Shown: piece after piece, positions 2,256 to 10,173 of the stretch | Numbering within the stretch: the first letter of the stretch is position 1 | How the letters are laid out: each line of letters begins with the position of its first letter | Origin: Nitrososphaerota archaeon | Lineage (GTDB): Archaea; Thermoproteota; Nitrososphaeria; Nitrososphaerales; JAAOZN01 | NCBI GenBank assembly: GCA_011605775.1 | Contig: JAAOZN010000068.1 | Span: forward strand, 1-35,277 | DNA length: 35,277 bases | Direction of reading: 5' to 3' | Made by a program: the position numbers and the translations under genes | Notes under the pieces: model-generated | What the model was told of the DNA's origin: nothing | Database searches by the model: none | Seen by the model: the letters and a program-made list of their open reading frames with translations, nothing else

Positions 2256-3242
2256 ATGGAGTATCCGCCTGATATTGAAGTGATCGGGAAAGGTGGGGGG
2301 AAGGAGCCATTTCGAATAGTGGGGCAGCGGGGGCTCTATTTCTTCATCCGCACTGAAACATTCGATCGACTAAGGGAGATAAACGATGCATATAGGCTCA
2401 CCGGCCAAACAGATCCAAAGCCGTTAGACGCTATAAAGGTAGTTGGAAGAAGGGGGGTCGTCGGACGAAGACCATTTCTTCTGCCGGGGCGTAGCGGAAC
2501 CTACCTCTGTATCCTCGATGAACATCTTAAGCAGCTTGTGAAGATTGCTCAGGCATATAAAATGTGGCTTGAAGCCAAAGAAGAAGAGAAAAAGCTAGAA
2601 AGGATTGTTAAGCCGCCTGAGGAAGGAAGATACGTTTACTGTATTATACCTTGGGACGGTAGCGACCGCAGTCTCAGCTTTGGAGAAATCGGCATAGAAA
2701 ACAGTGGGGAGGTATACACTATTCCCTACGGGGATGTCGCCGCCGTCGTAAGCAACGCACCGTTCAAAGAGTACACACCTAATAAGGAAAACGCCTACGC
2801 TCACATACAAGTCATGACGCTTGTAATGAGAGAACACACGGTTTTGCCGATGGCCTTCGGTATGGTGTTCAAGAACGAGGAAGTACTTCGAAGAGTGCTT
2901 GAGAGAAGCCGCGACGAGTTAAGAAAGGCCTTAAACGAAATCGAAGGCAAGGCGGAGTTCGGCGTCAAGGTGGTTCGGCCAAAGGGGGTTGAGCTCGACG
3001 AAGACGCGTTCGCTTCAGAGATAGGGGAGCTGCGCAAACTGGCAGTCCAAACCAAGCTCGGTAAGCGGTTCAGCAGATCCCTCATTTTGAACGCCTACTA
3101 CCTTATAAGAAAAGAGGATGTGGAGAACTTCCTAAACAAAGCTAGGGCGCTCGAAGAAAAGTTTAAGCAGCTAAAATTTCAGGTCACAGGCCCTTGGCCC
3201 CCGTCCAACTTTGTGAAAATAAAGATTGGGAGGAGAGATTAG
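2256..3242 (+). CDS. gvpF: Gas vesicle protein GvpF/GvpL with a duplicated N-terminal extension
   Basis: Residues 124-328 form a GvpF/GvpL domain: GRYVYCIIPWDG, EVYTIPYGDVAAVVSNAP, HTVLPMAFGMVFKNEEVL and the closing TGPWPPSNFV. GvpF/L proteins are minor assembly factors that bind GvpA. The first 123 residues are not part of the usual family. They contain two similar segments (about 7-47 and 60-102) with the shared pattern I-x-V-x-G, glycines, PF, G-x-x-G-x-Y, I-x-x-E, and L-x-x-I-x-x-AY, followed by a charged helix. The gene lies 43 nt after the regulator and 1 nt before gvpG, in an operon with gvpG and gvpH. A weak TATA-like sequence lies at about 2212-2220. The extension's function is unknown. 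Confidence 0.87.
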   Translation: MEYPPDIEVIGKGGGKEPFRIVGQRGLYFFIRTETFDRLREINDAYRLTGQTDPKPLDAIKVVGRRGVVGRRPFLLPGRSGTYLCILDEHLKQLVKIAQAYKMWLEAKEEEKKLERIVKPPEEGRYVYCIIPWDGSDRSLSFGEIGIENSGEVYTIPYGDVAAVVSNAPFKEYTPNKENAYAHIQVMTLVMREHTVLPMAFGMVFKNEEVLRRVLERSRDELRKALNEIEGKAEFGVKVVRPKGVELDEDAFASEIGELRKLAVQTKLGKRFSRSLILNAYYLIRKEDVENFLNKARALEEKFKQLKFQVTGPWPPSNFVKIKIGRRD

Positions 3243-3243
3243 G

Positions 3244-3537
3244 ATGCCATTTTTGATCGACGACATAATACTTCGGATGGTTGGCATCTCACTACCACCC
3301 TTTGACATGCTCTGGTTGCTTGAGACAATAAGAGACTATGCGATCCAAGAGCTCTACAACCCCGAAAAGATCGGCGACGAGTTAAAGGAGGCCGCGCTCC
3401 TATACGATCTCGGCGAGATCACGAAAGAAGAGTATGAGCGAAGATACGCTGAGCTCACAGAAAAGCTGAAGATAGCCCAGCGTGTCAGAGAATCGAACAT
3501 CATAAAGCGGGTCGACATTCTAAACGTGGGTGTTTAA
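3244..3537 (+). CDS. gvpG: Gas vesicle protein GvpG
   Basis: A 97-residue protein that starts MPFLIDDIILRMVG and continues PPFDMLWLLETIRDYA, then an acidic helical part (DLGEITKEEYERRYAEL) typical of GvpG, a small accessory protein needed for gas vesicle assembly. An in-frame TTG exists at 3226, but the GGAGG at 3230-3234 sits correctly for the ATG at 3244, so I chose that start. The 3' end overlaps gvpH by 8 nt, which points to coupled translation. The order after gvpF is the same as in haloarchaea. Confidence 0.88.
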   Translation: MPFLIDDIILRMVGISLPPFDMLWLLETIRDYAIQELYNPEKIGDELKEAALLYDLGEITKEEYERRYAELTEKLKIAQRVRESNIIKRVDILNVGV

Positions 3538-3988
3538 CGTGGGGTTCGATGAACTGCTAAAAGGACTACGTGAATTCATCAGAGCATTAGATGAGCTGGC
3601 GCAAAAGGAGGTGGTGGAGAAAAGGGGAAAAGGAAAGTTAATGGGAGCCGACGTTACATATTCCTATACCATTAGATATCTTTCACCTGCCAGACCAAGG
3701 GCTCCCCCAGCGGGAGGCGTGGAGAAGCCGTTAGTAGACGTTTTCGACAGGGGTGATCACATCGTCGTCGTCGCGCTCATCCCAAACGTCAAGGAAGAAG
3801 ACTTAAAGTTTAGGATAGAGGGCGATACATTAAAGATCACCTCAAACAAGGCAGGCACCAAGATCCTGAAGGAAGTATCGATACCGAAGGACAGCGAGGT
3901 CGATAAAATCTTAGACGCATCGTTCAAAAACGGCGTCCTCGAAATCAGGCTGAGAAAGAAACTTCGAACTTCGAAAGATAAAGGGTAA
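3530..3988 (+). CDS. gvpH: GvpH-like Hsp20/alpha-crystallin protein
   Basis: A 152-residue protein starting at a GTG that overlaps gvpG. Residues 1-45 form a charged helix (LLKGLREFIRALDELAQKE), and residues 68-145 an alpha-crystallin-type beta-sandwich: PLVDVFDRGDHIVVVALIP, KEEDLKFRIEGDTLKI, and the A-x-x-x-N-G-V-L-E-I signature as ASFKNGVLEIRL. GvpH in haloarchaea is an Hsp20-related factor that accompanies the GvpF/L assembly proteins. The C-terminal codons also carry the dyad operator of the next gene (3963-3976). Position between gvpG and the basic ORF supports the GvpH assignment over a general small heat shock protein. Confidence 0.87.
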   Translation: MFNVGFDELLKGLREFIRALDELAQKEVVEKRGKGKLMGADVTYSYTIRYLSPARPRAPPAGGVEKPLVDVFDRGDHIVVVALIPNVKEEDLKFRIEGDTLKITSNKAGTKILKEVSIPKDSEVDKILDASFKNGVLEIRLRKKLRTSKDKG

Positions 3989-3995: not shown

Positions 3996-4025
3996 TAAGA
4001 TAAACCGATTTACAGGGATGTGAGA

Positions 4026-4364
4026 ATGGCTGGGAGTGTTGAAGCACCAATCAGCTTCCAGAGAATGAAGGCAGTAAGGAAAGCTGAGCTAGCTAGAGAC
4101 CGAGGCAGAATCAAATTGCTTGCGATAAGGCGTAAGCTGAAGTTTCAGGTCGAAGGAAACGAAGCCAAAATGAGTCGAAGGAAGCAAGAGCAGGCGAAGA
4201 ACCTTAACCCGACCTCAAGGCTTAGAACCCTGGCTGCGCGTGAATGGGCGAAACTGGTCAGGAATCCTTCAAATTGGTCAAGTGTACCACTAAGGCCAAA
4301 GTATTCAAGCGTCAAGCCGAAGCCGAGGGTCTACGGCAGAAGGTTCGAGACCGTGGAAAGTTAG
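4026..4364 (+). CDS. Basic protein in the gvpI position
   Basis: A 112-residue, very basic protein (many Arg and Lys, few acidic residues), for example RKAELARDRGRIKLLAIRRK and SRRKQEQAKNLNP. I see no known domain. Haloarchaeal GvpI is also a short, strongly basic protein encoded between gvpH and gvpJ, so this is a plausible GvpI counterpart by position and composition only. A GTG at 4020 is in frame, but GGG at 4015-4017 is better spaced for the ATG at 4026. It has its own dyad-TATA promoter. The 150 bp after its stop are purine-rich without a further open frame; the next promoter follows at 4514. Confidence 0.55.
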   Translation: MAGSVEAPISFQRMKAVRKAELARDRGRIKLLAIRRKLKFQVEGNEAKMSRRKQEQAKNLNPTSRLRTLAAREWAKLVRNPSNWSSVPLRPKYSSVKPKPRVYGRRFETVES

Positions 4365-4581: not shown

Positions 4582-4947
4582 ATGGTTGAGAGCCTAGTAC
4601 CGTCAAAGGAAGGCGACCTCGCGCAGGTTGTAGAAAAGATTCTGGAAAAAGGGCTTGTGATAAACGCAGACATCTCTGTGTCGGTTGCAGGCACCGAGCT
4701 ACTTGGCATAAAAATTAGGGCCGCGCTAGCATCCTTCGAGACAGCGGCAAAGTATGGGCTAGAATTCCCATCTGGCACAAACTATCAGGCGAGAGGGTGG
4801 AAGGAGATTGAAATAAGGAAGGCGAAATGTCCTGGCTGCAGAAATGAGGTTCCAGAAGACGAACTGTTTGAGGAAGGCTGCCCCTACTGTGGTTGGGTTA
4901 GCCCGCGAAAGAAGCGCAAGCAAGCGCCAACCATAATCTCAACTTAG
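4582..4947 (+). CDS. gvpJ: GvpJ-like gas vesicle protein with C-terminal zinc ribbon
   Basis: Residues 10-60 are a GvpA/J/M-family core: DLAQVVEKILEKGLVINADI, then VSVAGTELLGIKIRAALAS and FETAAKYGL. In GvpA/J proteins this makes the helix-strand-strand-helix unit. After it come about 20 residues and a C-terminal CPGC (83-86) and CPYC (100-103) pair, spaced as in a zinc ribbon, then a basic tail. A zinc ribbon is not part of standard GvpJ, which is otherwise a minor shell or initiation protein. It leads an operon with gvpK, gvpL and the gvpM-slot gene. The gvpJ name rests on position before gvpK; by sequence it could also be called GvpA-like. Confidence 0.82.
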   Translation: MVESLVPSKEGDLAQVVEKILEKGLVINADISVSVAGTELLGIKIRAALASFETAAKYGLEFPSGTNYQARGWKEIEIRKAKCPGCRNEVPEDELFEEGCPYCGWVSPRKKRKQAPTIIST

Positions 4948-4995
4948 GTTCACTGCCCCTTACACTACAGCGTGTTCGAAATGGAGGGGGAACGC

Positions 4996-5307
4996 ATGCC
5001 CATCAGTATCGATGAGGATAACCTTAAGCAAGGTTTACTAGGTGTAGTCGTCGCCCTAGTTGAAATCATAAAAGAGGTGCTTGAAAGACAAGCTATTAGA
5101 AGAATGGAGAGGGGGGATTTGGAAGACGAGGAAATTGAGAGGCTTAGCATCGCTCTAGCCGATTTGAATGAGGCGCTTGAAAACATAAAGAAGGAGAACG
5201 GGATCGAGGATGCTGTAAAATCTGTACGAGATGGACTTGATGAAGTAGCCGATAAAGTGATAGATAAGTTCTTGAATCCGAGGAGGTGGGCTGAAGAGGT
5301 CAGATAG
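4996..5307 (+). CDS. gvpK: Gas vesicle protein GvpK
   Basis: A 103-residue protein with the GvpK pattern: NLKQGLLGVVVALVEIIKEV, then LERQAIRRMERGDLEDEEIE and LSIALADLNEALENIKKENG. GvpK is a small accessory protein required for gas vesicle formation. A GTG at 4972 is in frame, but the purine run GGAGGGGG at 4983-4990 fits the ATG at 4996. The intergenic space contains the half-site TTCGAAA (4975-4981). It is followed at 2 nt by gvpL. Confidence 0.9.
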   Translation: MPISIDEDNLKQGLLGVVVALVEIIKEVLERQAIRRMERGDLEDEEIERLSIALADLNEALENIKKENGIEDAVKSVRDGLDEVADKVIDKFLNPRRWAEEVR

Positions 5308-5309
5308 AG

Positions 5310-6101
5310 ATGAGTGAGGTGCAAGAAGCTGGCGAAGGCAGATACCTTTACTGCATAATCAACGGTGGAGTGGAGCTTAACTTAGGCAGGATAGGTATAG
5401 AAGATGCCGAAGTCTATACGATCCCTTATAAGGATGTTGCTGTGGTTGTGCACTCTTGCCAAGCTAAGCCCTACGTGTCGAAGGACGAGGAGAAGGTGAA
5501 AAGGTGGATCTTCAACCACAATTATGTAATCGACAAAGCAACAGAACTATTCGGCACAGTCTTGCCCTTCTCCTTTGACGTGATAATCAAAGGAGACGAG
5601 ACTACGGTTAAAGATTGGCTAAGTAGGAATTATGAGAAGTTTAAGGAAGGGCTTGAGAAGGTTAAGGACAAGGCGGAATATACGGTGCAAATCTTCTGCG
5701 ATCAAGATAGGCTCGCGGAGAAGATTTTGAGCGAAGACGAGGAGCTGAGAGCATTGAAGGGAAAAATTGAAAAAATGCCGCAGGCGTCGACCTACCTGCT
5801 TCGGCGGAAATTGGAGCTTAAGGTAAAAGATAAAATTTCAGCCGAAATATCCAAGCTTGCCGAGGAGTTTGCCTCAAAGATAAGGGAGCTGGTCGAGGAA
5901 ATGAAGGTCGAAGAAACTTCGCGAGTACCAGAAAAATATAAGGACAAAAAGTTGGTTGTGACGCTCTCGTGCTTAGTGCATAAGAGCAAGGTTGAAGATC
6001 TTGGCAAGTTACTTGAGGAGATAAACGCTCGCGAAGGATATATCGTTCGCTTCACCGGGCCCTGGGCGCCTTTCAGCTTTGTTACATTTAAGGAGGCGTG
6101 A
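5310..6101 (+). CDS. gvpL: Gas vesicle protein GvpL (GvpF/L family)
   Basis: A 263-residue protein that is a GvpF/L domain throughout: EGRYLYCIINGG at 9-20, AEVYTIPYKDVAVVVHSC, VLPFSFDVIIKGDETTV, a long helical insertion around 130-205, and the closing VRFTGPWAPFSFVTFKEA. It lacks the duplicated N-terminal extension seen in the first GvpF/L of this cluster, so the two are distinct paralogues. Its position after gvpK corresponds to haloarchaeal gvpL. GvpL is an assembly factor that contacts GvpA and other minor Gvp proteins. AGGAGG lies at 6090-6095 inside its last codons, just before the next start region. Confidence 0.9.
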   Translation: MSEVQEAGEGRYLYCIINGGVELNLGRIGIEDAEVYTIPYKDVAVVVHSCQAKPYVSKDEEKVKRWIFNHNYVIDKATELFGTVLPFSFDVIIKGDETTVKDWLSRNYEKFKEGLEKVKDKAEYTVQIFCDQDRLAEKILSEDEELRALKGKIEKMPQASTYLLRRKLELKVKDKISAEISKLAEEFASKIRELVEEMKVEETSRVPEKYKDKKLVVTLSCLVHKSKVEDLGKLLEEINAREGYIVRFTGPWAPFSFVTFKEA

Positions 6102-6103
6102 AG

Positions 6104-6133
6104 ATGCGTATGAAGATTGTGTGGTGCGTCTAA
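6104..6133 (+). other. Nine-codon mini-ORF in front of the gvpM-slot gene
   Basis: The strong AGGAGG at 6090-6095 is spaced for an ATG at 6104, which opens only MRMKIVWCV and a TAA at 6131-6133. The stop is one base before the ATG (6135) of the gvpM-slot gene (TAAGATG), and the two frames differ. It may be a coupling leader peptide, or a frameshifted original N-terminus. Confidence 0.4.
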
Positions 6134-6134
6134 G

Positions 6135-7064
6135 ATGAAGGCTGAGAGAGAAAACGACCTTGTTGATCTACTTGACAAACTTCTGAACCGAGGACTTGTG
6201 TTAAATGCGGACTTGATAATATCTGTGGCAGGCATACCATTGATCGGCGTAAGCCTTAAAGCTGCGATAGCGGGAATAGAAACTATGCTAGAATACGGTA
6301 TGATGGAAGCCTGGGATCAGCGCACAAGAGAATGGTATGCGAGAGAGTATGCGAAGAAGGGGGATGTGCCTCTTAGAGAAGGGGAAGAAGTTTTCCTCAG
6401 ATCGTTTGGATCCTTTCTGGACAGACGATGGATTAACCCAACTTGGCGACCTGGCTTTCTGTACCTCACAAACAAGAGACTCCTCCTATTGAGAAGGGAG
6501 CCGCCTGAAGTGTTGTTGGAAATCCCACTCGACAAGATGGAGGGGCTTGCGGTCAACAAAGAAATGCGCTATGCGAGGGAGAGAGAGGAACTTTACATCC
6601 AGTTCAACTGCGGCGAGATCGTTCGAATCCACGCTCCAAACGTCCTAGAGCTGAAAGATGAAATCGAGAAACTCGTTGGAAAAAGCCTTGAGCACAATAT
6701 TGAGAACTGTCATCCTCCTCTTTCCGAAGACGAAAAACTCCTTAGAGTGGAGAAATTATGGTACCTGTTTCCGGCAATGGGCATATTAGGCGAGACCTGG
6801 AAGCCTGGGCGCCTCTATCTAACAAACAAGAGACTTTTCTGGGTGTATAGGGTAGACGGTGAGAAAATGTTTGAAGTGCCACTTTATAGCATCAGTAATT
6901 TAGCTACAAGCTTCGACGAAAGGAAAGGCAAGGTTCTTACGATAACATTTGATGGCAGAAATGCATCGTTCAGCGGCGACGAACAGAGCGTCGACAGCAT
7001 CATAAGGGCGATAGAGCAAGTTGCCCACACAGCCTGCTCATACAATCCCCAGCAGCCTAAATAG
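6135..7064 (+). CDS. GvpA/J/M-family protein fused to two GRAM/PH-like domains (gvpM position)
   Basis: A 309-residue protein. Residues 8-55 are a GvpA/J/M core (LVDLLDKLLNRGLVLNADLI, then SVAGIPLIGVSLKAAIAGIE). After a linker, two similar domains follow at about 80-182 and 196-296, each with the GRAM/bacterial PH-like pattern: GEEVFLRSFGSF, PGFLYLTNKRLLLLRREP, EIPLDKMEGL, and in the second PGRLYLTNKRLFWVYRV, EVPLYSISNL, VLTITFDGR. GRAM domains usually bind lipids or proteins at membranes. The gene closes the J-K-L operon, where haloarchaea have the short gvpM. An upstream in-frame TTG (6117) exists without a ribosome binding site. The job is unknown; linking a nascent vesicle to membrane or assembly factors is a guess. 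Confidence 0.8.
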   Translation: MKAERENDLVDLLDKLLNRGLVLNADLIISVAGIPLIGVSLKAAIAGIETMLEYGMMEAWDQRTREWYAREYAKKGDVPLREGEEVFLRSFGSFLDRRWINPTWRPGFLYLTNKRLLLLRREPPEVLLEIPLDKMEGLAVNKEMRYAREREELYIQFNCGEIVRIHAPNVLELKDEIEKLVGKSLEHNIENCHPPLSEDEKLLRVEKLWYLFPAMGILGETWKPGRLYLTNKRLFWVYRVDGEKMFEVPLYSISNLATSFDERKGKVLTITFDGRNASFSGDEQSVDSIIRAIEQVAHTACSYNPQQPK

Positions 7065-7160: not shown

Positions 7161-7187
7161 TGATGGAAGGTTATGGGAGCGATTAAT

Positions 7188-8252
7188 ATGAGAGAATGGA
7201 GGAGGTTGCACCCTAGAATTGTGAGGGGGGCGCGTATTCATACGACTTTAGAGGAGAAGAAGGATATGGCAAAAGATCTTGGAAAAGAGTCTGCAGAGTT
7301 TCTGATGCGAACGGTCGAAAGGCTTGAAGGAGAAACATTTCAAATACAAAAATCCGGGCTGGTCAATACAAAATACTTGTTGCCAAACATTGAAAATTAC
7401 ATAGAAACAGAGGAGGTGAAGAAGATCAAGGAGAAAGTGAAGCTTTGGCTTAACGCAGGCTACCCTGTTCATATCGTTGGCCCCACAGGCTGCGGGAAGT
7501 CGACACTCGCGCTACGTGTAGCAGAAGAGCTCGGCAGACCCATAGTATGGGTGAACGGTGACGAGACGATGACCACAGCAGATTTGGTTGGAGGCTACTC
7601 TGAAGTTGAGGCTGAAAGTTTGAGGGATAGATTCATTCACACGGTTCTCAAGACCAGAGACGTTATGCGGGCAGGCTGGGTGGACAACCCCCTGACGGTT
7701 GCGTGTAAGTATGGTTACACGTTCATCTACAACGATTTTTCCAGAGCTAGGCCTGAAGCAAACAACATCTTGCTTCCGGTCTTTCAGGAGGGCGTACTTG
7801 AGCTCCCAAAGAGATTCGGAGAAGAACGCTACATCAAAGTCAACCCCAACTTCAGAGCGATTCTAACAAGCAACTCCGTCGACTATGTAGGAGTATTTCG
7901 ACCACAGAATGCCCTACTTGACCGAATGGTCGGCATCTACATGGACTTTTACGACTTCTACACCGAGGTTGAGATCGTTAAAGCGCACTCCGGAATACCG
8001 CAACGTGAGGCGGAAGCAATAGTTGAAGCTATCCGCAGGCTAAGGGAAAAGCTGCCTGATGCAGAAAAGCCGGGAACACGGGCCTGCATAATGATCGCAA
8101 AAAGGTTTGCGATGAGCGGCGGAAAACTTGAAGAACTCCTCGAAGAACTATGCTTAGACATTTTAGCAACTAAAAGTAGAGGCCCATCGGACTGGGCTGC
8201 AAAACAGAAGCTCGTCAAAGACATCTTAGCAACCAAAGGTGGTAAAGGATGA
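7188..8252 (+). CDS. gvpN: Gas vesicle AAA+ ATPase GvpN
   Basis: A 354-residue MoxR-type AAA+ ATPase. Walker A is GPTGCGKST (98-106); the Walker B region is FIYNDFSRARPEANN, and a sensor-like segment is FRAILTSNSVDYVG with DRMVGIYMDF after it. GvpN is a known component of gas vesicle clusters that hydrolyses ATP and promotes vesicle enlargement. The first 70 residues are a charged extension ahead of the ATPase. An in-frame ATG at 7173 lies upstream of the predicted transcription start, so 7188 is preferred. The stop overlaps the gvpO start (ATGA at 8249). It has its own dyad-controlled promoter. Confidence 0.92.
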   Translation: MREWRRLHPRIVRGARIHTTLEEKKDMAKDLGKESAEFLMRTVERLEGETFQIQKSGLVNTKYLLPNIENYIETEEVKKIKEKVKLWLNAGYPVHIVGPTGCGKSTLALRVAEELGRPIVWVNGDETMTTADLVGGYSEVEAESLRDRFIHTVLKTRDVMRAGWVDNPLTVACKYGYTFIYNDFSRARPEANNILLPVFQEGVLELPKRFGEERYIKVNPNFRAILTSNSVDYVGVFRPQNALLDRMVGIYMDFYDFYTEVEIVKAHSGIPQREAEAIVEAIRRLREKLPDAEKPGTRACIMIAKRFAMSGGKLEELLEELCLDILATKSRGPSDWAAKQKLVKDILATKGGKG

Positions 8253-8533
8253 ATGAGGTAGAAATCCTAGAGATTGGCGAAAAATGCTGCGCCCAAATGG
8301 CAAGGCTATTAAATAAGAAGGTAGAAAGTATCGTGAGCCTTACAAAAGAGGAGAAAGGGTGGAAAGCGCTTATTGAGGTTTTAGAAAGGAAGGCAGTGCC
8401 TGACACGCACGACCTACTCGGAAGGTACGAGGTGACAATGGACCCGAACGGAAGGGTCTTAAAATACAGTCAAACACTCATAAGATACAGATCCGATCGT
8501 CTCGGAATAGAATTCAGAGAAGCAAAAGAATAG
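8249..8533 (+). CDS. gvpO: Gas vesicle protein GvpO
   Basis: A 94-residue GvpO: GEKCCAQMARLLNKKVESIV followed by the characteristic GWKALIEVLERKAVPDT and DLLGRYEVTMDPNGRVLKY. GvpO is a small cytoplasmic protein always found with gas vesicle genes; it has been linked to regulation or stability of gvp transcripts. It overlaps gvpN by 4 nt, so the two are co-translated, as in the haloarchaeal gvpACNO unit. Downstream (8534-8669) lies a short convergent gap with no gene. Confidence 0.9.
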   Translation: MNEVEILEIGEKCCAQMARLLNKKVESIVSLTKEEKGWKALIEVLERKAVPDTHDLLGRYEVTMDPNGRVLKYSQTLIRYRSDRLGIEFREAKE

Positions 8534-8844: not shown

Positions 8845-9087
8845 CTAAGCCGTAGGTGCTGCTGGTGCTGGCGCTGGTGGTGCGACCGCTGCAGCCTCTA
8901 TTTTCGTTATCTCTTCAGCGTAGTGTATGAACGTGTCAACTGAGGCTACAACTACTCTAGCTTCAATCGTCAAAATCTCGATGCCGACTAGTGAGACACG
9001 TACCCACGCGTCGATGACTATGCCCCTGTCCAGTATCCTGTCTAGTACTTCAGCCAAATTACTTGCCGAGGGTGTTACGTTTACCAT
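8845..9087 (-). CDS. gvpA: Major gas vesicle shell protein GvpA
   Basis: An 80-residue Gvp[21 protein letters not shown], then [19 protein letters not shown] and [11 protein letters not shown] match the helix-strand-strand-helix unit that polymerises into the gas vesicle wall. The tail after residue 63 is rich in Ala and Pro ([12 protein letters not shown]), as in many GvpA proteins. It is transcribed opposite to gvpN-O from a dyad-TATA promoter with a leader of about 32 nt, and leads the 54-residue gene downstream. It is the only standard GvpA here; the other two family members carry extra domains. Confidence 0.95.
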
Positions 9088-9190: not shown

Positions 9191-10173
9191 TTAAAAGTTG
9201 ACCACCTTTTGAAGCGAGTTCGCAATGTATTTTTGGGCCGCTATTAGATGTCTTATTTTATCTTTCGCTTCTTCTTTTCCCGCTTCTGTCAGCGCATAAA
9301 CTTTTGAACGCGGATTTTTGGATTCCACTATTTTGAGGAGACCGCGTTTTTGCATGGCGTACAGCATTGGGTAAACGGTTCCTTGGCTGAGAAACGTATA
9401 GTATTCTTGATAGATTCTTCGGATAAGTTCGTAGCCGCAAAGAGGAGCTTTTAGCAGCAAGGATAAAATGATTACTTCAAGGTGTTTTTTTACGAAAATT
9501 TCTAGACTCTCCCGAGAAACTGTATCGACAACATCTAAATCTGGCTTCCAAAGGGATCGTAGACTGAGCCCTATGATCGCCTGCTCGGTTTTTGTGGAGA
9601 GAATAACGTTCCTGTAGAGTTCCAGTAAAGCCTCCAACAAATTGCTAGGCAAAGTATCGATCTCAAAAGCGATTAGCGACTTGATAGTAAAAGGCATTTT
9701 TTCACCCATTCTTATGCGAACCTCCCTTAGACAATCAACAAGCTCTTTAGTGACGGAAGAAGTAACCGAGCCCCCAAAGTCCATTACAGCCCTCAAACCG
9801 GAATAACTTTTTGGAACAAGGTTACGCAGTTCTTGGAGTTCAGCTTTTAAATTGCTTATCTCATGTGATGTGACCGCCCCCCCCGGACCGCGATTGGAAA
9901 AGCATACAATCTACGCGATTCAATATCTTCTCTAAACTCTCTCTCAAAACGAAATCTGTTTGTCTCATCATTATTATATACAAAGAGGCATAGCTCACCG
10001 GATTCAAGACCGAGGCGCAGGAAAGAAGATAGCATCTGCAAGACTTGCACACCATATTCGTATAGGAGAAGCAGGTGCTCAAATTTACAGGGAAAAGCAA
10101 GAACCTTACGGGAACAAGGAAGAAAAAGCCACTCCCTTCTCCTTTTCACCCTAATATTTTGGTCCATTCTCAT
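9191..10173 (-). pseudogene. Second MEDS-PadR regulator, split by a frameshift at a G8 tract
   Basis: Two frames on the minus strand make one MEDS-PadR protein. The first (10173 to 9856) has the start of a MEDS domain: EHLLLLYEYGVQVLQMLSSF, GLESGELCLFVYNNDET, YAFPIAVRGG. The second, open from before 9877 to 9191, carries the rest and a PadR winged helix: LEVIILSLLLKAPLCGYELI, LSQGTVYPMLYAMQKRGLL, SKVYALTEAGKEEA. They switch at eight G (plus-strand C run 9877-9884). Nine G would join them exactly as AVRGG-AVTSHEISN, so a one-base change restores about 327 residues. It is the paralogue of the regulator at 1316-2212 and lies upstream of gvpA. It could be a phase-variable gene in the off state, a pseudogene or an assembly error. 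The downstream frame also has a possible TTG start at 9796. Confidence 0.7.
9877..9884. repeat. Homopolymer C8 (G8 on the coding strand) at the regulator frameshift
   Basis: Eight consecutive C on the plus strand lie exactly where the two frames of the minus-strand regulator meet. Gain of one base or loss of two restores a single frame. Runs of this kind change length by slipped-strand mispairing in phase-variable genes. Confidence 0.75.

Follow-up and report, generated by a model that had tools for sequence, protein, structure and literature searches.

A GvpM-type gas vesicle protein with two PH-like domains in a Nitrososphaerota archaeon and its relatives in other archaea

The window, a stretch of 35,277 nucleotides from a Nitrososphaerota archaeon, carries a gas vesicle gene cluster in which a GvpM-type gene (6135–7064, forward strand) runs on in the same reading frame into two PH-like domains, as judged from Pfam, NCBIfam and AlphaFold2. 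The fusion is more than a product of chance, since the same fusion is found at 41 further loci. The short GvpM on which most is known is only one form of the protein.

Translated from the ATG at 6135, the gene encodes 309 amino acids with no internal stops. The mechanical start of the open reading frame is a TTG at 6117, upstream of this ATG, which we prefer because it fits the M-x-[PA]-x-R start of three relatives in a four-sequence alignment. The GvpM core (residues 1–62; 6135–6320, +) includes a match to Pfam Gas_vesicle (PF00741) over residues 9–46 (E 3.3e-13, 50 bits against a cut-off of 25). Among the NCBIfam models, halo_gas_GvpM ranks highest (E 1.4e-25), ahead of GvpJ (5.9e-13) and GvpA (3.5e-6), although its score of 88.8 bits lies under the curated cut-off of 109 for this model (NF046091), and we therefore use the name “GvpM-type gene” rather than “haloarchaeal GvpM.” The gene also closes the F-G-H-I-J-K-L-M row. 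The original prediction that the fusion replaces gvpM by position was right as to the position but not as to the replacement, for on family score and gene order 6135–7064 is gvpM itself. Downstream of the core come a predicted linker helix (residues 62–74; 6318–6356, +; AlphaFold2), a first PH-like domain (residues 86–181; 6390–6677, +; AlphaFold2, VIA-align), which groups with the single PH domain of other members, and a second (residues 202–301; 6738–7037, +; Pfam, AlphaFold2, VIA-align).

The cluster contains gvpA, F, G, J, K, L, M, N and O together with an H-like gene. It opens with a PadR-like regulator (1316–2212, +; Pfam PadR E 3.9e-8), after which follow, all on the forward strand, a GvpF/L family gene where gvpF is expected (2256–3242; Pfam GvpL_GvpF E 4.8e-49), gvpG (3226–3537; Pfam GvpG E 1.3e-15), an Hsp20/GvpH-like gene (3530–3988; HSP20 E 1.2e-6, GvpH E 0.0036 and below cut-off), a short open reading frame in the gvpI position (4020–4364; no Pfam family, one homologue in gvp cluster L120), gvpJ (4582–4947; NCBIfam halo_gas_GvpJ E 1.2e-30), gvpK (4972–5307; Pfam GvpK E 1.1e-20) and a further member of the GvpF/L family that occupies the gvpL position immediately 5' of gvpM (5310–6101; Pfam GvpL_GvpF E 3.8e-66). 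Beyond gvpM lie an AAA ATPase gene (7173–8252, +; AAA_5 E 4.2e-18) with homologues in other gvp clusters, which we take to be gvpN from its place beside gvpO (8249–8533, +; Pfam GvpO E 2.4e-22), and, on the reverse strand, the shell protein gene gvpA (8845–9087; NCBIfam GvpA, NF006874, E 3.9e-36) and the PadR-like regulator at the other cluster end (9191–9796; Pfam PadR E 1.2e-13). The row F-G-H-like-(I)-J-K-L-M, followed by N, O and a divergent A, is the haloarchaeal order, which PMC9501494 gives in full. By eye, GvpJ ends in a Cys-x2-Cys...Cys-x2-Cys tail whose zinc-ribbon matches are below cut-off. Similar zinc-ribbon-like tails are visible on GvpJ at L052 5631–5975, L053 5495–5863 and L060 910–1302 (−), and one of the same kind lies 3' of the second PH domain in a GvpM of genome G917 (L074). 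A partial DNA-methyltransferase match at 228–1163 of the window (MmeI_Mtase E 2.3e-5, below cut-off) is perhaps a gene remnant.

An assembly chimera or a misjoined MAG contig is an exceedingly improbable source of this arrangement. It would be favored by the lack of a PF00741 match in both same-genus genomes, though one of these is only 72% complete; against it, full-length homologues 58% and 48% identical to the window protein occur in separate assemblies, and both genomes of the genus align to the contig along its right flank (76% over 2.7 kb and 69% over 1.9 kb). We reject it on these intact homologues in independent assemblies and on the flank alignment. The outcome that had been named as fatal to the prediction, a chimera not found in related genomes, did not occur, as the fusion recurs in the genomes of relatives. 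The lack of PF00741 in the two same-genus genomes makes the cluster a probable accessory island of the genus. A single-sequence search of the window's own genome yielded no second copy of the PH module.

The PH-superfamily matches in Pfam fall on the residues after about 80. For the whole protein, curated cut-offs are exceeded by Vps36_ESCRT-II (GLUE/PH; E 2.2e-8, 34.6 against 24.1 bits) and, just, by bPH_3 (E 5.6e-5, 24 against 23 bits). PH_TFIIH (E 3.2e-4) is below its cut-off, as is GRAM (PF02893; E 3.8e-4, 20.7 against 23.6 bits), and the domains are therefore filed as PH-like and not as GRAM. When the halves were scanned alone against Pfam, a check proposed with the original prediction for GRAM/bPH_2-type profiles, the C-terminal half again passed the GLUE (Vps36) cut-off (24.8 against 24.1 bits) and the N-terminal half passed none (Vps36 14.1 bits; bPH_3 E 0.019). 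The two YLTNKRL stretches that had drawn attention to a repeat are real, half against half giving 43% identity over 46 residues in BLASTP (E 3e-11). Across 38 members, Gas_vesicle is found in all 38, and at E 0.01 Vps36 (PF11605) and bPH_3 (PF14470) are each found in five and GRAM in four. With so few members matching the Pfam PH models, the PH assignment of most single-PH members depends on their resemblance to the domain in the window. Searching PDB sequences with the PH alignment returned no matches at E 10.

AlphaFold2, supplied with four sequences (the window protein and three homologues), predicted two consecutive domains, each with seven strands followed by a C-terminal helix, both in the run with the full protein (mean pLDDT 70) and in that with the PH pair alone (80); the GvpM core was poorly modeled, with pLDDT under 50 over residues 20–43. 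In the predictions both domains are thus seven-stranded barrels capped by a C-terminal helix. In VIA-align, domain 2 aligned best to the PH domain of TAPP1 (Z 14.1; 98 residues at 1.8 Å) and to MTMR2 (Z 13.8), and domain 1 to 4tyz (Z 13.0) and the GLUE domain of EAP45 (Z 12.8), in a list made up mostly of matches to the second domain, so that families missing from it may still be related. The top Foldseek matches were BBS5, which heads both lists, FARP1/2, Rtt106 and centaurin-alpha, proteins with two PH-fold domains each. The TM-scores by query length are low, about 0.2–0.4, which means that the domains are alike but that the relative placement of the two is unsupported. CheF was also among the Foldseek matches (7ovp_A, E 1.9e-5). 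Sequence and prediction together show two PH-fold domains that follow the linker, outside the hydrophobic part of GvpM. The originally predicted layout of a core followed by two PH/GRAM-like domains is accordingly upheld by Pfam, AlphaFold2 and VIA-align except for the GRAM score itself, and the contrary result, no PH/GRAM fold in residues 80–296, did not arise.

Reading of open reading frames placed the core and a PH domain in one frame at 42 distinct loci, the window included. These comprise 35 from the first reading, L113, L115, L122, L123 and L124, and finally L126 and L128, whose PH match is taken from the PH-profile scan of the Bathyarchaeota MAG's class. L102, L113, L123 and L124 entered as stop-to-stop frames with no chosen start, and the full member alignment, A4, holds 38 of the 42 fusions. 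Two PH domains are present in five of the 42: the window, L051, L052, L074 and a Streptomyces plasmid gene. The relatives found in a scan of GTDB contigs come from three MAGs, one of Bathyarchaeota (58% identical), one of Methanocellales (48%) and one of Methanothrix (48%, one PH domain), and with the window protein they form alignment A1. Viral contigs were also scanned with A1, and none of the 14 stretches that matched encodes a relative.

PH-profile matches accompany gvp almost without exception in the class of the Methanothrix MAG, where the PH alignment and PF00741 each match 40 of 237 genomes and 39 are common to both, i.e. 39 of the 40 gvp-bearing genomes also match the PH profile. In the remaining gvp-bearing genome, G804, the only match is of GvpA type and lies on a contig of 7.3 kb. 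G779, with a PH match and no gvp, was not counted as a fusion (E 6.7e-4, a 58-residue frame and no gvp gene on L119), and PH-profile matches at unread loci (such as G884, G909, G814 and G899) are profile matches only. In the class of the Bathyarchaeota MAG the same four of 256 genomes match both the PH alignment and PF00741, so that all four gvp-bearing genomes do so, and in that of the Methanocellales MAG one genome of 11 matches the PH alignment. The expectation that GvpM is normally short therefore holds in Halobacterium (84 amino acids) and fails in the Methanothrix MAG's class.

In a sample of the window's phylum, two of 398 genomes match the PH alignment, the window's own and G403, which we take to be the same genome as G1108 of the Bathyarchaeota MAG's class because coordinates and score coincide. 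PF00741 is found in 31 of 400 sampled genomes of the window's class, its own included, and a phmmer search at E 1 of 12 short regions from 11 of the 30 other gvp-bearing genomes gave no PH domain. In three of these PH-less regions, a scan of the third paralogue shows instead a fusion of GvpK with a GvpA-type domain: L063 581–1090 (−; GvpK E 1.8e-25, Gas_vesicle E 3.4e-11), L057 1444–2088 and L054 9–1115 (−), the last running on into GvpL/F. GvpM-type genes that lack a PH domain occur in Halobacterium, in G018 (L060) and, as one of two copies, in G917 (L112). This copy in G917 (L112 4395–4742) stops close to the expected beginning of a PH domain, and the same genome also has the tandem-PH GvpM of L074. 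The search for the same fusion in other gvp clusters, which the original prediction had called for, was productive.

A tree built from 43 PH segments has one branch that separates the five second domains from all first and single domains, with support of 93/82 (not starred) and recovery in 96% of 200 bootstrap trees, the Streptomyces rows being long-branched. It follows from this split that single-PH proteins carry the first domain. The second looks like the outcome of a single early event with later losses, or of a rare acquisition that then spread. In A4, the window's GvpM is 59% identical to the single-PH protein of L075, from the Methanothrix class, and 57% to the Bathyarchaeota one; that L075 is as close as the Bathyarchaeota GvpM suggests transfer between archaea. 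Median dN/dS over 68 non-independent pairs is 0.27 for PH and 0.08 for the GvpM core, and these sequence comparisons show the PH module to be under purifying selection.

According to PMC8716928, Halobacterium GvpM binds GvpL, a contact for which its first 25 residues are important, and touches GvpF, H and L through its last 25; removal of those last 25 still allows gas vesicles to be made (Vac+/− or Vac+), and removal of 27 does not. GvpL attracts all other accessory Gvp (PMC7688916), and a GvpM-GFP fusion aggregates (PMC9501494). The PH module is attached where haloarchaeal GvpM has its C-terminal tail. In the explanation that we rank best, and to which we give an even chance, the PH domains would be protein-docking surfaces that hold GvpM in the accessory complex at an early stage, with GvpL as the most probable contact. 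Besides the published contacts, we count in its favor the identity of the gene, the predicted fold, the wide conservation of the module in gvp clusters, the purifying selection on it and its single copy in the window's genome; the small number of Pfam PH matches among members, the poor model of the core and the GvpM genes with no PH domain count against it. The docked module would keep aggregation-prone GvpM soluble and correctly placed at the nucleus, and GvpA would then be delivered to the nucleus where GvpM sits. The first PH domain would be the widespread, working unit, and the second, probably from one old duplication or insertion, would have been kept in a minority. Haloarchaea would have a short, largely dispensable GvpM tail in place of the PH module of other archaea.

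GvpM lies directly 3' of GvpL in 13 of the 17 PH-bearing clusters laid out, the exceptions being L073 and L117 (order J-M-K-L), L110 (DnaK between) and L111 (after J). Tree distances at 15 loci show the first PH domain following GvpL (rho 0.77) more closely than GvpK (0.48), as did a first version that included the Streptomyces row (0.68 against 0.38). At the ten loci that allow GvpL, K, J, G and F to be compared together, however, GvpK (0.56) and GvpL (0.55) are tied, and the GvpM core by itself also follows GvpL (0.69 in ten loci, 0.59 in fifteen), so that the GvpL signal is neither robust nor PH-specific and serves as a hint only. Several clusters also encode a GvpL/F protein fused to a DnaJ domain, at L051 3044–4030 (Pfam E 6.9e-15), L052 1453–2463 (−; 7.7e-17) and L110 of G403 (7259–8242, −; by similarity), with DnaK genes adjoining inside the gvp cluster (L051 4051–5820; L052 3–1472, −; L110 5307–7346, −), apparently a chaperone pair dedicated to gas vesicles.

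A putative docking role fits better than lipid binding. PH domains that bind archaeal membrane lipids, placing the nucleating vesicle at the cell membrane, would be in keeping with the phosphoinositide-binding PH and PH-GRAM domains of TAPP1 and MTMR2 among the best structural matches and with the leading position of BBS5, but a shared fold shows no function. The net charge of the 43 PH segments, a weak proxy for the binding surface as it is not surface charge, ranges from −8 to +6, being positive in 12, zero in six and negative in 25. PH domains that are not consistently basic weakly disfavor membrane tethering, which we consider unlikely; where a lipid- or protein-binding module had been predicted, the lipid part has found no support beyond the shared fold. 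Much less probable still is a GLUE-like reader of ubiquitin-like modifiers that would connect archaeal protein modification with the assembly of vesicles or their turnover. Vps36/GLUE is the best Pfam match after the core, and the first domain aligns to the ubiquitin-recognizing GLUE domain of EAP45, yet the Vps36 model matches only the five members noted above and many other PH types match equally well.

It is doubtful, too, that the folded domains act solely as a solubility aid or spacer, with no specific partner, keeping hydrophobic GvpM out of aggregates or out of the ribs. The aggregation of GvpM-GFP, the higher dN/dS of PH than of the core and the members without PH all speak for this, whereas a pure spacer should swap freely and this fold recurs at an identical position in several lineages of archaea as well as on one bacterial plasmid. 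The PH-less GvpM of Halobacterium, L060 and L112 do imply that the module is dispensable for gas vesicles in general. The docking reading has a bolder extension, which we advance tentatively: in many non-haloarchaeal archaea the nucleus might form on a PH scaffold, with the PH module acting as a specific receptor. Its ligand would be GvpL or a place on the cell surface or skeleton, and the receptor would set the site and time of vesicle initiation. Were this so, the haloarchaeal and Bacillus systems that have been studied would lack a real layer of control. Gas vesicle nucleation and the roles of the minor GvpA homologues are still open. For individual gvp genes, too, PMC4586473 states that many questions about function persist. 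A folded PH module on GvpM offers a soluble handle for pulling out its partner, and the best-studied, 84-residue haloarchaeal GvpM may be a reduced form.

No publication linking a gas vesicle with a GRAM or PH domain was found in the literature searched, which took in few subscription papers, and “pleckstrin homology” appeared beside gas vesicles only in an unrelated place. Within that scope, the original statement that no described gas vesicle protein of this layout is known stands, and the papers covered apparently contain no account of this widely conserved PH-bearing GvpM. The module can go unnoticed behind a different gene name, as in the Streptomyces sp. SGAir0924 plasmid protein WP_137962300.1, annotated “gas vesicle protein GvpJ.” This has the window's layout of core, PH and PH-like domain (38% over 259 residues), with the GvpM model again best in NCBIfam and below cut-off; it differs in being bacterial, in its strongly diverged second PH domain (domain E 0.0032) and in the order J-M-K-L. 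Among general PH families, GLUE, bacterial PH and GRAM (PF11605, PF14470, PF02893) share the fold, but they match few members at E 0.01, and the window's GRAM score is below cut-off. CheF, the archaeal chemotaxis adaptor, resembles the domains in structure (7ovp_A) and weakly in sequence (E 0.003, below cut-off); unlike GvpM it acts in chemotaxis, and it has, to our knowledge, no GvpA-type domain. The GvpM of Halobacterium salinarum shares the core (62% over residues 25–66), the best NCBIfam match and the place after gvpL in J-K-L-M order, whereas its 255-base gene goes no further than the core and a short tail and encodes no PH domain. That of Methanothrix sp. bin.308 (L053, 185 amino acids) likewise has J, K and L before M and shares the core and the first PH domain, differing in having one PH domain only. 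According to PMC10470525, Methanothrix thermoacetophila transcribes a row annotated gvpG-gvpA-gvpM-gvpK-gvpLF (Mthe_0069–0073). Its order is that of L117, whose GvpM bears a PH domain, and by analogy we infer that Mthe_0071 is a PH-bearing GvpM.
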